Source of the DNA: Elusimicrobiota bacterium
GTDB lineage: Bacteria > CG03 > SLGR01
Reading direction: 5' to 3'
Length of the DNA: 64,000 nt
Assembly (NCBI GenBank): GCA_003553445.1
Contig: PWEK01000052.1
Coordinates: forward strand, 1-64,000
Part shown: piece after piece, positions 6,922 through 36,014 of the stretch
Position numbering within the stretch: position 1 is the first letter of the stretch
How the letters are laid out: the number at the start of each line of letters is the position of its first letter
The notes under the pieces: generated by a model
The model's database searches: none
Told to the model about the DNA's origin: nothing
The model's input: only the letters and a program-made list of their open reading frames with translations
Position numbers and translations under genes: made by a program

Positions 6922-7761
6922 ATGAAAAATCAACTTCCGGAAAATCTAAAAGGGAAAGAATTAAAAGATTCATATAAAAGTCTTTCCCGCTTGCTTATAA
7001 ATCGCCCTGCAAAAGAAAAGAAGGTTACGGGTATCAACGGTCCTCCCGGCTGCGGAAAAACAACACTATGCAGAAAAATAAAACATCACCTTCGAAAAAA
7101 TGACATCAATACGGTTACCCTCTCTATAGACGACTTTTACTGGACATATAACAGAAGAAAAAGCGAAGCTAACGATAAAAAGCTTTTGGACGTTAGAGGA
7201 CCGGGAACCCATGACATACCTCTAGCCTTAAAAACACTTAATAACCTTCTGAAAGCAAAAGAAGGGTCAGAAACCCCCCTGCCACGCTTTAACAAGTGGC
7301 TAAAAAACGGCAGGGGGGACAGGGCTCCGGCAAATGAATGGGAAATATTCAAGGGTTCCCCGGATATAATCATACTTGAAGGCTGGAATATCTGTCAGGA
7401 ACCGATTCCTGACAGCGAACTTAAACGCCCTTTCAACATTCTGGAAAAATCAGACTCTCCAAACGGCAGGACAAGAAAATATATCAACAAAAGGCTCAAA
7501 GAAGATTATCCGAAGCTATGGAAATACATCGGATTTCTGATAATGATAAAAATAGATGGCATAAAAACAGTCTATAAACAAAGAGAAGAGCAGGAAAAAG
7601 AGCTAAGAAAGAAGGGCAAAAGCGCAATGAAAGAAAAAGAAATAGTTGACTTCATAAACCATTACGAACGATGGATTATAAACATACAAAAAACCCTTGG
7701 AGAAAAGTCGGACGTAGTTATTGAAATAGATGAAGATAGGAAAATAAGGAGAGTAAAATGA
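6922..7761 (+). CDS. P-loop D-glycerate 3-kinase-like / uridine-kinase-like kinase
   Basis: Walker A GPPGCGKTT, SIDDFYWT, RGPGTHD, FILEGW-type signature; overlaps mgs by 4 nt. Confidence 0.75.
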   Translation: MKNQLPENLKGKELKDSYKSLSRLLINRPAKEKKVTGINGPPGCGKTTLCRKIKHHLRKNDINTVTLSIDDFYWTYNRRKSEANDKKLLDVRGPGTHDIPLALKTLNNLLKAKEGSETPLPRFNKWLKNGRGDRAPANEWEIFKGSPDIIILEGWNICQEPIPDSELKRPFNILEKSDSPNGRTRKYINKRLKEDYPKLWKYIGFLIMIKIDGIKTVYKQREEQEKELRKKGKSAMKEKEIVDFINHYERWIINIQKTLGEKSDVVIEIDEDRKIRRVK

Positions 7762-8951
7762 ACAAAAACACAAGCCTCGTATCATTTCCGTTTAAGGTTG
7801 AAGATGTTGACGTATTCGTAAACAACATACGCACTGCTGCATCGCTCCCGGTTGTTAATGAGGTTCTATGCGTAGGCGCAGAGAAAAACGAGTGTTACAA
7901 GAAAGCACAGAAAAAAGTTATGCAGGATCCTTGCTTAAAAGATAAAAACATTACTTTTAAGGTCCAGGAGCGCCTTGGAAGCAAAAGGCCCGGTAAAGGA
8001 GACGGAATGAATACCGCATTAAAATATTTCGTGGAAAACTCCAACTGCAGGAGGATTCACTTTTATGACGCCGACATAAAAAACTTTTCATATAAATGGG
8101 TCCTTGAATCAGAACGCTCTGCCAATATGGGGTTTGACGTTGTACGGCACTACTTTCCGCGCGCCAGAACAGATGCTATGATAACATGGATGATTACGAA
8201 AACCGGTTTTTCAATACTCTTTCCGGATTCTCAGCTTCCTTTTATCGAACAGCCCCTGGGCGGCGAACTTCTGATGGAAAAAAAAGTGGCAGAGAAGTTA
8301 ATTTCGGATAAGGATGTAATAATTCAATCAGACTGGGGCATTGACACAATTTACACCTACAAAATGATTAAGAACCGGTTTTCAATGTATGAAGCTTATA
8401 TGAGCGAAGGAAAAAGTCATTCGCTTTATCCGGGGCTTGATTCCCTTGAATCAATGCTTTACGAATGTTTCTGTGTTATTTATAATCTGAAGGATAAAAA
8501 AAAGAAAATCAAGCACATAAAACACAGAATAGAGCACGCATCCAGCGTTTCAAATGAGGTTGAACACAAGCTGGGATTTGACATACAAAAAACCCTCCTG
8601 CTCCTTAAGCAGGGCTGGACTGAGAAACAATTTGAGCTCCTTGAGTTTTTTCCCGGGGAAGTAAGAGACAACATGAAAAAGAATAAAGAGATCCCAATTT
8701 TTGACTTTATGGATGATGCGGCATGGTATAAAACCTATAAAACTATGCTCGAGAACTTTGTTCAAGGAGACAAAGACTGGAGAAAGCTCATTTTCAAACT
8801 CTGGGTAGCCAGGGTTCTGTGGTATACTACTAACGTTGCCCTGAAAGGCTATGATTTTTCATTTATGCACTTATACAGGATGATTGATAATTATGCGCGG
8901 GTCTCAAAAAACGTTGAAACTAATGACACTTTTCAGGCTCCCGAAGTATAA
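7758..8951 (+). CDS. mgs: Mannosylglycerate synthase (GT78, one-step)
   Basis: Extensive recognisable identity with Rhodothermus-type MGS: QERLGSKRPGKGDGMNTAL, HFYDADI, VRHYFPRARTDAMITWMITKTGF, EQPLGGELLM, SDWGIDT. Confidence 0.92.
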   Translation: MNKNTSLVSFPFKVEDVDVFVNNIRTAASLPVVNEVLCVGAEKNECYKKAQKKVMQDPCLKDKNITFKVQERLGSKRPGKGDGMNTALKYFVENSNCRRIHFYDADIKNFSYKWVLESERSANMGFDVVRHYFPRARTDAMITWMITKTGFSILFPDSQLPFIEQPLGGELLMEKKVAEKLISDKDVIIQSDWGIDTIYTYKMIKNRFSMYEAYMSEGKSHSLYPGLDSLESMLYECFCVIYNLKDKKKKIKHIKHRIEHASSVSNEVEHKLGFDIQKTLLLLKQGWTEKQFELLEFFPGEVRDNMKKNKEIPIFDFMDDAAWYKTYKTMLENFVQGDKDWRKLIFKLWVARVLWYTTNVALKGYDFSFMHLYRMIDNYARVSKNVETNDTFQAPEV

Positions 8952-9717
8952 CATCCTCCACCGCTTCGGCAAAACCAGAAGGGCCTGTTGAAGAAGTCAG
9001 GTAAAATTTCTCATCATAAACCCTTTTGGCGCTTACTAAAATAGGGTTGTCAACTGACCTGAGTAAGGGAATATCGTTTTCGCTGTCTCCTATACCGTAG
9101 GTTACAGTATCACCCCATTTTCTTTTATATAAACCAATAAGCAAACCTGCGGCTTTACCCTTGTCCGCACCGGACCCTATAAGATTCATATACTTACCAC
9201 CGTGCACTAACGTCAATGAATATTTCGAAGCCGCTTTTCTGACAACTTCCATATTCCCCTCGAAGGAAAAACTTTCACTGTATTTCCTTCTCCTGGCCAA
9301 TTCGGCAAGCTCATAAGACATATTCGCTTCTTTAGCGACTTCTTCAGCAGTCAACTCCTTGCGGCCCTTTATATTGCAGCCTGTCTTCTCTCTTATTTCT
9401 CTCATGGCTTTTTTAATTATCTTGTATGAAACACCCAATTCAATTATATTATATTTACCCCATTCCCTGGAATATCCGTATTTAAAATCAAAGTATTTCT
9501 TTGGAATGTAAACAGCAGAGCCGTTTTCTGTAATGAAAGGCTGGTGCAACCAGAAAACATTCTGGTAATACTCATTTTCCGCAGGAGTCTTACCAGTGGC
9601 AAAAACTAACGGAATTGAATGTTTTTTTAACTTTTCAACCGAGGGAAGAGACTCCTCAAATGAATAATTTTTGAAATCTATTAGAGTTCCGTCTAAATCC
9701 GTAAAAACTATCTTCAT
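8920..9717 (-). CDS. mpgP: Mannosyl-3-phosphoglycerate phosphatase (HAD)
   Basis: HAD motif FTDLDGTLID, GDSENDIPLL; adjacent to mpgS. Confidence 0.85.
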   Translation of the reverse strand: MKIVFTDLDGTLIDFKNYSFEESLPSVEKLKKHSIPLVFATGKTPAENEYYQNVFWLHQPFITENGSAVYIPKKYFDFKYGYSREWGKYNIIELGVSYKIIKKAMREIREKTGCNIKGRKELTAEEVAKEANMSYELAELARRRKYSESFSFEGNMEVVRKAASKYSLTLVHGGKYMNLIGSGADKGKAAGLLIGLYKRKWGDTVTYGIGDSENDIPLLRSVDNPILVSAKRVYDEKFYLTSSTGPSGFAEAVEDVILREPEKCH

Positions 9718-9723
9718 TCTGCT

Positions 9724-10917
9724 TCAGGATTTCAGAGTTGTAATTAATTCTTCAGGCAGATTTTTTTCAAAAGCCTTGTAGTTTAATTTGGAAAGAGGAG
9801 GATAATATATGCCTTTCTCCAGTTTTTCCTCCTTTTTTAATGCATTTCGTGATGTCAGCTCCTGAATTATCTCTTTTTTGAGCGGGTCAGGACACACATG
9901 AGAATGATACATCACTTTTAGGGAATCTTTTATCATGTTATTTATATGATTTTTACCCTTCTTCTGGTGAAAATGAGGGTTCCTTGAATTTACCTGGAAA
10001 ATTTCAATAAAGTCATTCATTACTCTTTTTTCAGGAACTTTTTCCAATCCGCCGAATTTTTCCATAAGACTTATGTAATGATATGTTTCGATTGAATAAC
10101 CCGATGAATACCCGAGAACCATTGCAAGATCCGTTGATAGTGCATGCTCACCGGCATTTCCCGTCCTTATAATCTCCGTTTCAAAACCGGTATAGTAACT
10201 TATCAGTTTATTTAGAAATTTGTTTGTAACCACTGAAGATCGGCCCTGTTTCGTGAAAAAAAGGTTATTTCTGGATATCTCCGGCTTGTTATACCAGGAT
10301 ATTCTTATCATTGAAAACCTTGATTCACTTATGGAAAACCCCGCTGCATACTCCTTAATGTACTCATGCACCGAACCCGGGAAATAATTATCAGCATCAA
10401 TAAACCCGATATATTTCTTTCCCGATATCTTTGCAAGCGCCATGGCAAGAACCATCCCCTCGCCTTTGCCATCTTTTATAATTCCCTTTTTATCCAGTAT
10501 TTCGGTATAATTGGCTTCTTTTAAGGCTCTGGCAATTTTTTTATCTTTCTGATATACAATTGTTATCGGCCTTCCTGTCGTCTTTCGAATATTGTCAACA
10601 AGCTTTTTCTCCATTATAAATCTGTCAGCCGGCTCCTTGCTGCTGTTTGACACCACGATAACCTCACAATGATGCGGCACGGCAAAAAGAACTCCTTCAA
10701 TAAGCTTAAGCGGTACATCTCTTACAGGGACAACTATTGCCATTTTTTCTTCTATCGCATACGATTCTTCATAAGAGATATTATAATATGGAAGGCTTAT
10801 TGACTCCTTTTCGGGAGACTTCTTACGCAAGCCGGAATCAAGCAGCATTACGCGCTGAAGCTCATATATTATATTTGCGCCAAATCTTTCAAGTTCTCCG
10901 GGTATTTCTATAATCAT
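9724..10917 (-). CDS. mpgS: Mannosyl-3-phosphoglycerate synthase (GT55)
   Basis: VVSNSSKEPADRF, KGEGMVLA, GFIDADNYFPGSVHEY motifs. Confidence 0.9.
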   Translation of the reverse strand: MIIEIPGELERFGANIIYELQRVMLLDSGLRKKSPEKESISLPYYNISYEESYAIEEKMAIVVPVRDVPLKLIEGVLFAVPHHCEVIVVSNSSKEPADRFIMEKKLVDNIRKTTGRPITIVYQKDKKIARALKEANYTEILDKKGIIKDGKGEGMVLAMALAKISGKKYIGFIDADNYFPGSVHEYIKEYAAGFSISESRFSMIRISWYNKPEISRNNLFFTKQGRSSVVTNKFLNKLISYYTGFETEIIRTGNAGEHALSTDLAMVLGYSSGYSIETYHYISLMEKFGGLEKVPEKRVMNDFIEIFQVNSRNPHFHQKKGKNHINNMIKDSLKVMYHSHVCPDPLKKEIIQELTSRNALKKEEKLEKGIYYPPLSKLNYKAFEKNLPEELITTLKS

Positions 10918-10923
10918 AATAGA

Positions 10924-10952
10924 ATTATACCTATTTCCTCATTTTTTTGCAA
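10924..10952 (-). promoter_or_regulatory. Predicted sigma70-type promoter of mpgS (TTGCAA-N17-TATAAT), 6 nt from the ATG
   Basis: Sequence inspection: -35 TTGCAA at 10952-10947 and -10 TATAAT at 10929-10924 on the minus strand. Confidence 0.55.
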
Positions 10953-10964
10953 AAATTGAAGCCG

Positions 10965-10990
10965 AGCCGGACTTATACTTTATGACTTAT
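10965..10990 (+). repeat. Solo 26-bp copy of the inverted repeat that bounds the RAYT-like element at 35.1-36.0 kb
   Basis: agccggacttatactttatgacttat, identical to 35111-35136 and to the reverse complement of 35988-36013. Confidence 0.97.
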
Positions 10991-11010: not shown

Positions 11011-11038
11011 TTTACACTCTTAAAAAAATAAATAGAAT
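11011..11038 (+). promoter_or_regulatory. Predicted promoter of the MBL-fold gene (TTTACA-N16-TAGAAT), 6 nt from the ATG
   Basis: -35 at 11011-11016, -10 at 11033-11038, ATG at 11045. Confidence 0.5.
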
Positions 11039-11044
11039 AACTTT

Positions 11045-11776
11045 ATGGAAATAGTTTTTTTAGGAACAAGCTCGGCAATAGCCACTGCAGAACGTGATAA
11101 TACTGCCGTTTTCGTAAAGTATTCAGGGAAAAGAGTCCTTATAGACTGCCCCGGCTCAATTGTACATAAACTGGCCAGAGCCTCGTTTAACTTTCTGAAT
11201 ATTGATGCAATCTTAATTTCCCACTCCCATCCTGATCACCTGTACGGTCTGCCGTCATTAATTCATTCTTTCGCTCCATACGCGACACCTCCCCCCATAT
11301 ATGCTCCGGATAAAACCATAAAAAAAATAAAAACCCTTTTAAGCCTATTCAATCTACGAGGCAACATTAAAAGATTGAGAAAAAATATAGATGAACTTGA
11401 TATTGAAACATTCAAAACAATGCACACAGACGAATCAGCCGGATTTTTATTCAAAGAAAACAAAAACGAAACCATATATACGTCGGATACAGGACCATTA
11501 CCCGGAAGGAAGAAACGGTACTTAAATGCCGACTGTCTAATACATGACTGCTTTTCTCCCTCAAGACACAAAAAGTCCATGCCGTTTTTAGACAACACAC
11601 ATACATCAGCCCTGGAACTTGGTAAAATCGCATCGTTAAATAATATAAAGAAACTTGTTCCTGTACATTTTTCCGGAGAACATAGTTATAAGATGGAAGA
11701 AATAATAAAAGAAATTAGAAAGAATTACAAAGGAAACATTTTAATTCCGAAAGATCTGGGTTTTTTAATCATTTAA
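11045..11776 (+). CDS. MBL-fold metallohydrolase (RNase Z/AHL-lactonase-like)
   Basis: HSHPDHLYGLPSL metal motif; FLGTSSAIAT N-terminus. Confidence 0.85.
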   Translation: MEIVFLGTSSAIATAERDNTAVFVKYSGKRVLIDCPGSIVHKLARASFNFLNIDAILISHSHPDHLYGLPSLIHSFAPYATPPPIYAPDKTIKKIKTLLSLFNLRGNIKRLRKNIDELDIETFKTMHTDESAGFLFKENKNETIYTSDTGPLPGRKKRYLNADCLIHDCFSPSRHKKSMPFLDNTHTSALELGKIASLNNIKKLVPVHFSGEHSYKMEEIIKEIRKNYKGNILIPKDLGFLII

Positions 11777-35109: not shown

Positions 35110-35137
35110 AAGCCGGACTTATACTTTATGACTTATT
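35110..35137 (+). repeat. Left inverted repeat of the RAYT-like element
   Basis: aagccggacttatactttatgacttatt; supplies the ORF stop codon. Confidence 0.97.
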
Positions 35138-35986: not shown

Positions 35987-36014
35987 AATAAGTCATAAAG
36001 TATAAGTCCGGCTT
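35987..36014 (-). repeat. Right inverted repeat of the RAYT-like element
   Basis: Exact reverse complement of the left repeat. Confidence 0.97.

Follow-up and report, generated by a model that had tools for sequence, protein, structure and literature searches.

TIRtrons, as described by Di Nocera et al. (2013; PMC3733652), consist of a RAYT-like gene, the TIRYT, placed between terminal inverted repeats (TIRs) that lack GTAG, and the same repeat occurs elsewhere in the genome as a scattered, moderately abundant family. The motif GGGGWSAS is present in only some TIRs (PMC3733652). TIRYTs end in a DnaA-like HTH, and a Bac_DnaA_C or HTH C-terminus is the feature of TnpA_REP subclass 2.1, in which the catalytic residues are assigned to the motifs HuH and Y---NP (Quentin et al., 2018; PMC6006769). 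The spread of single TIRs by TIRYTs has been proposed in the literature, where it is not established experimentally. RAYTs and TIRYTs are commonly termed domesticated, and their host role is an open question. The TIRtron kind is thus already known; what is new here is a TIRYT with dispersed TIRs that has lost its catalytic residues completely.

The window, by which we mean the whole 64,000-nucleotide stretch analysed here, contains three exact copies of the 26-mer AGCCGGACTTATACTTTATGACTTAT, at 10965-10990 (+), 35111-35136 (+), and 35988-36013 (-). The initial annotation had described the first as a solo copy identical to the core of an element about 24 kb away, and the match was exact at all three sites. 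No match was obtained in 100 shuffles, even at up to three mismatches, so the number expected by chance is none. The two copies near 35 kb delimit an element of approximately 0.9 kb, in which a single gene lies between perfect 28-bp inverted ends:

35110..35137, plus strand: downstream TIR of the TIRYT gene, 28 bp, including the TIRYT stop codon
35126..35968, minus strand: TIRYT-derived gene, 280 aa, TTG start after AAGGAG, Y1-type domain and DnaA-like HTH
35987..36014, minus strand: upstream TIR of the TIRYT gene, 28 bp, perfect inverted match

Measured from its core end, the downstream TIR lies 6 bp away from the start codon of pilD. The encoded protein matched the NCBIfam family REP_Tyr_transpos (E = 1.4e-7), and its HTH, at about residues 206-280, matched Pfam Bac_DnaA_C (E = 7.8e-6), both below the curated cut-offs. 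The AlphaFold model (mean pLDDT 90) matched the RAYT structure 4er8, and the modelled C-terminus matched DnaA domain IV (1j1v) with 32% identity in the aligned part. A RAYT-like domain followed by a DnaA-like HTH is the architecture of subclass 2.1, to which the protein corresponds with family scores below the curated cut-offs.

DNA folding of the repeat gave no structure on either strand, that is, neither the hairpin nor the palindrome of a REP, and the 28-bp unit contains no GTAG (or CGTC) foot tetranucleotide. Because hairpin and GTAG are both missing, the 26-mer is, judged from its sequence, a solo TIR of a TIRtron and not a REP. The earlier connection of the repeat to a RAYT-like gene holds, as two inverted copies flank the gene and one of them includes its stop codon; the accompanying label of RAYT/REP was too loose, and TIRYT/TIRtron fits instead. 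The system shares with REP/RAYT (TnpA_REP, e.g., of E. coli) the fold of the N-terminal domain, the inverted copies of a short unit on both sides of the gene, and the scattering of this unit between genes, but it differs in having no palindrome or GTAG foot, a low copy number, an additional HTH domain, and a protein that lacks the RAYT HUH and Tyr motifs despite the homologous fold. The transposases of IS200/IS605 (IS608, ISDra2) have the same Y1-type fold; however, their ends are subterminal hairpins, whereas the ends here are TIRs and the protein is without an active site. Similarity to DnaA domain IV is seen in the HTH fold, and TTAT is common to the repeat and the DnaA box TTATNCACA. This resemblance is limited to TTAT: the repeat has no CACA, and the helix responsible for reading that half of the box is not conserved in the window protein. 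Compared with described TIRtrons, the window copies lean to gene starts and the TIR sequence is new; its outer part is AAGCCGGAC, and GGGGWSAS was not found in it.

All four catalytic residues are gone from the window TIRYT (H60Y, H62Y, Y119M, and N123Y), so that HUH reads YVY and Y---N reads M---Y. Position 119 is that of the nucleophilic tyrosine and position 123 that of the metal-binding asparagine. The four residues are all kept in 83 of the 84 homologues aligned, the exception (L129) missing one. Because of this loss, the window protein is filed, on its sequence, as TIRYT-derived rather than as a working TIRYT. Across the 18 alignment columns conserved at ≥98%, it is changed at seven (H15, R19, N59, H60, H62, Y119, and N123) and unchanged at 11, and the HTH is likewise kept: its identity to each of the two closest relatives is 47%, with these two sharing 41%. 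The terminal branch of the window TIRYT has an ordinary length (0.65, against 0.54 and 0.60 in the nearest relatives).

Decay is frequent in transposase genes, and the TTG start together with the seven altered conserved residues would suit a young pseudogene without function. We consider this improbable: in neutral simulations run to the observed loss, the frame stayed free of stop codons in 0.75% of runs with indels not counted, and the losses concern the HUH/Tyr motifs and H15/R19, with the HTH and 11 further positions of high conservation spared. The frame, ribosome-binding site, and HTH are intact, as is the fold as predicted by the model. Because frame, HTH, and start signal are kept despite the catalytic loss, the gene appears to have been maintained for a role other than DNA cleavage. 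The window TIRYT would then separate binding from cutting in nature, since selection that keeps this gene cannot be for catalysis, and the question of the host role of TIRYTs could be addressed with one protein and one 26-bp site.

The source genome is a draft of 2.22 Mb (97% complete, 5.6% contamination). At up to three mismatches, it contains 13 copies of the 26-mer, 10 exact and three with two mismatches, and C122:21033 is the site of an additional copy that has lost 4 bases. The reversed control pattern gave no match in the same genome, and the 26-mer was absent from 60 other genomes, 15 of them from the same phylum. Genome-wide, 11 copies of the TIR lie outside the element and thus form a dispersed repeat family; eight of the exact copies are solo. 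Most copies have 27 bp in common (AAGCCGG...), with the first A replaced by G in the solo copy of the window. A phage origin of the repeat was rejected, as viral contigs did not contain the exact 20-mer core, and an Rfam scan around the 26-mer copies revealed no known RNA. Variant copies at L139 5328-5353 and L141 2773-2798 lie within genes, where they are read in frame as SHKVQVRL.

Significant flanking TIRs were found for 63 of 84 testable TIRYT homologues. A second TIRYT of the same genome, on contig C141, is 43% identical to the window protein, has intact catalytic motifs, and possesses its own TIR family of 17 copies, including an inverted doublet. In relatives, too, TIRYTs are accompanied by copies of their own TIRs, 8 in G010 and 3 in G002. 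The C141 TIR forms inverted doublets at L038 64-146 (G000:C37) and near L045 1501, of which one is exact and the other degenerate; they resemble REPINs, but their units have no hairpin. Most copies of this TIR (L034-L050) begin within a few bases of a stop codon, with TGA often running into the repeat, and stop codons are possibly its strict target. Tandem iterons of 7-9 bp were considered as a general rule for TIRs and rejected, at most being tentative, with 9 of 30 TIRs at p < 0.05 and a direct-repeat signal of p = 0.067 in the window TIR.

The solo copies contain nothing of the element interior. Recombination between the element ends was rejected as their source, as inverted TIRs would lead to inversion and would not leave a solo copy, and a solo REP-like scar, which the initial annotation had offered as an alternative, is unlikely for the same reasons. 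Because the TIRs are inverted and no interior sequence was carried along, the copies must have spread as single units. The explanation that we regard as probable is that they are solo TIRtron TIRs, spread singly by a TIRYT, and that the window protein, although disarmed, still binds them through its HTH. Nicking and joining by a TIRYT would have spread one unit each time, the enzyme being either an ancestral form of the window protein that was still catalytic or a related TIRYT acting in trans, e.g., that of C141. The window protein itself now lacks both histidines of HUH as well as its nucleophilic tyrosine and metal-binding asparagine; the predicted fold and the DnaA-like HTH remain, and this HTH would bind the repeat in its AT-rich half (TTAT-containing units), whether in the element or in the solo copies. 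Both the spread by TIRYT activity and the retained DNA binding are most likely on sequence grounds. Against this explanation stand the HTH score below the Pfam cut-off, the restriction of the DnaA-box likeness to TTAT, and the p of 0.067 for direct repeats in the window TIR. In addition, the identity of 10 copies points to a recent spread, whereas the active site seems to have been lost earlier, which would require that the copies were moved by a different TIRYT, that selection holds the sites constant, or that the loss was fast. Since the genome is a draft, an active cognate enzyme may also have been lost or left unassembled.

Gene contexts rest on calls from a home-made gene caller and on ORF lists, supplemented for the window family by a Pfam check of the flanking genes; those of the C141 and G010 families come from the gene calls and ORF lists. 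Mapping throughout the genome, as proposed by the initial annotation, gave a distribution that was not random, with all eight exact solo copies intergenic or at a gene end. In seven of these eight, the outer end of the repeat (CCGGCTT) faces a gene start:

trpE
an unknown gene
mpgS
two ArsR-type regulators
a BadF-type activase
a 593-aa protein without confident family

The eighth lies at a convergent gene end. Of the three variant copies, one precedes uvrA by 18 bp, another occupies the first codons of a gene, and the third is internal to a gene. The copy with the 4-base deletion at C122:21033 has the opposite orientation. In the nuclease-intact C141 and G010 families, this orientation towards a gene start is seen in only 3 of the 20 solo copies that were classified; the other 17 are mostly at gene 3' ends. 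The difference from the window family gives p = 0.0007 for exact copies and p = 0.004 for all copies, with small numbers in both cases, and copies in divergent gaps always face some gene start. In addition, four of the seven start-facing copies (those of mpgS, trpE, the BadF-type gene, and one ArsR-type gene) have their outer end 6-16 bp before a -35-like box.

These contexts raise the possibility that the nuclease-dead protein is a domesticated transcription regulator of the host and that the start-side copies, including that of mpgS, are its operators. The loss of the active site with the frame and HTH kept, the contrast in orientation with the nuclease-intact families, the proximity to -35-like boxes, and the identity of the 26-mer copies despite a dead enzyme are all consistent with such a role. 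However, the genes downstream of the copies have no common pathway, and compared with random intergenic insertion the bias reaches only p = 0.056 (7/8) or 0.020 (9/10 with the first-codon copy). Further points against operators are the exact copy at a convergent gene end, the gene-internal variant, and the opposite orientation of the copy with the 4-base deletion. A plausible reading of the sequences is a domesticated DNA-binding protein with dispersed candidate sites, in which the scattered TIRs may now serve as candidate binding sites near genes; the further step, in which the TIRYT was domesticated through the loss of its whole nuclease active site and the element ends became candidate operators, including those of mpgS and the trp operon, is held here only tentatively.

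The outer flanks are G/T-rich in most copies of the 26-mer, which could reflect target preference instead of function. The copies would then be neutral landings of the TIR, drawn by a G/T-rich target preference to regions of ribosome-binding sites and promoters, and nothing would read them now. This is a serious contender, if somewhat short of being the probable account. The private changes of the variant copies are as expected of drifting copies, and the C141 family, with its other strict context at stop codons, shows that target choice can set context. Inert insertions, on the other hand, leave unexplained why a nuclease-dead gene is kept open and how 10 copies can be identical when their cognate enzyme is inactive. 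At the trpE copy (G000:C5:68555), a leader peptide, MIKVEKENCIKVNENWWWRM, was noted between the repeat and trpE, 41 bp past the copy (L134); such a leader is expected for trp attenuation, and there was no Rfam match there.

The solo copy of the window lies between two divergent genes:

9724..10917, minus strand: mpgS, mannosyl-3-phosphoglycerate synthase (PF09488, E = 1.8e-143; TIGR02460, above cut-off)
10924..10952, minus strand: predicted mpgS promoter, from consensus scan only (TTGCAA at 10952-10947, 17-bp spacer, TATAAT)
10965..10990, plus strand: solo TIR copy, from sequence search; outer end (CCGGCT, minus strand) towards the mpgS start codon, 47 bp off
11011..11038, plus strand: predicted MBL promoter, from consensus scan only (TTTACA from 11011, 16-bp spacer, TAGAAT), 20 bp from the repeat
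11045..11776, plus strand: MBL-fold hydrolase, ribonuclease Z-like, 243 aa (PF12706; TIGR02651, E = 7e-36, below cut-off)

The 127-bp gap between the mpgS start at 10917 (minus) and the MBL start at 11045 (plus) was confirmed, and the consensus scan agreed with the earlier distances of 12 bp to the mpgS -35 and 20 bp to the MBL -35. The predicted mpgS -35 is located 12 bp past the outer end of the repeat, and by the same scan the mpgS leader is very short or absent. Two observations indirectly favour the earlier idea that the copy could be an operator regulated in trans: the nuclease-dead protein has kept its DnaA-like HTH intact, and the copies are biased to gene starts. Among 15 relatives, mpgS was found in G001 alone (80% identical), in a different gene context, so that no alignable empty site was available among them for comparison. 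Near the start codon of the G001 gene, a comparable promoter-like sequence is present and the 26-mer is absent, which counts against a regulatory role; because of this, the 26-mer is probably not an ancestral component of mpgS control. At 7758-10917, MpgS is encoded next to a HAD-type phosphatase and a mannosylglycerate synthase (MGS, PF21969/PF21967), and the one-step and two-step routes to mannosylglycerate thus seem to be present in one cluster.
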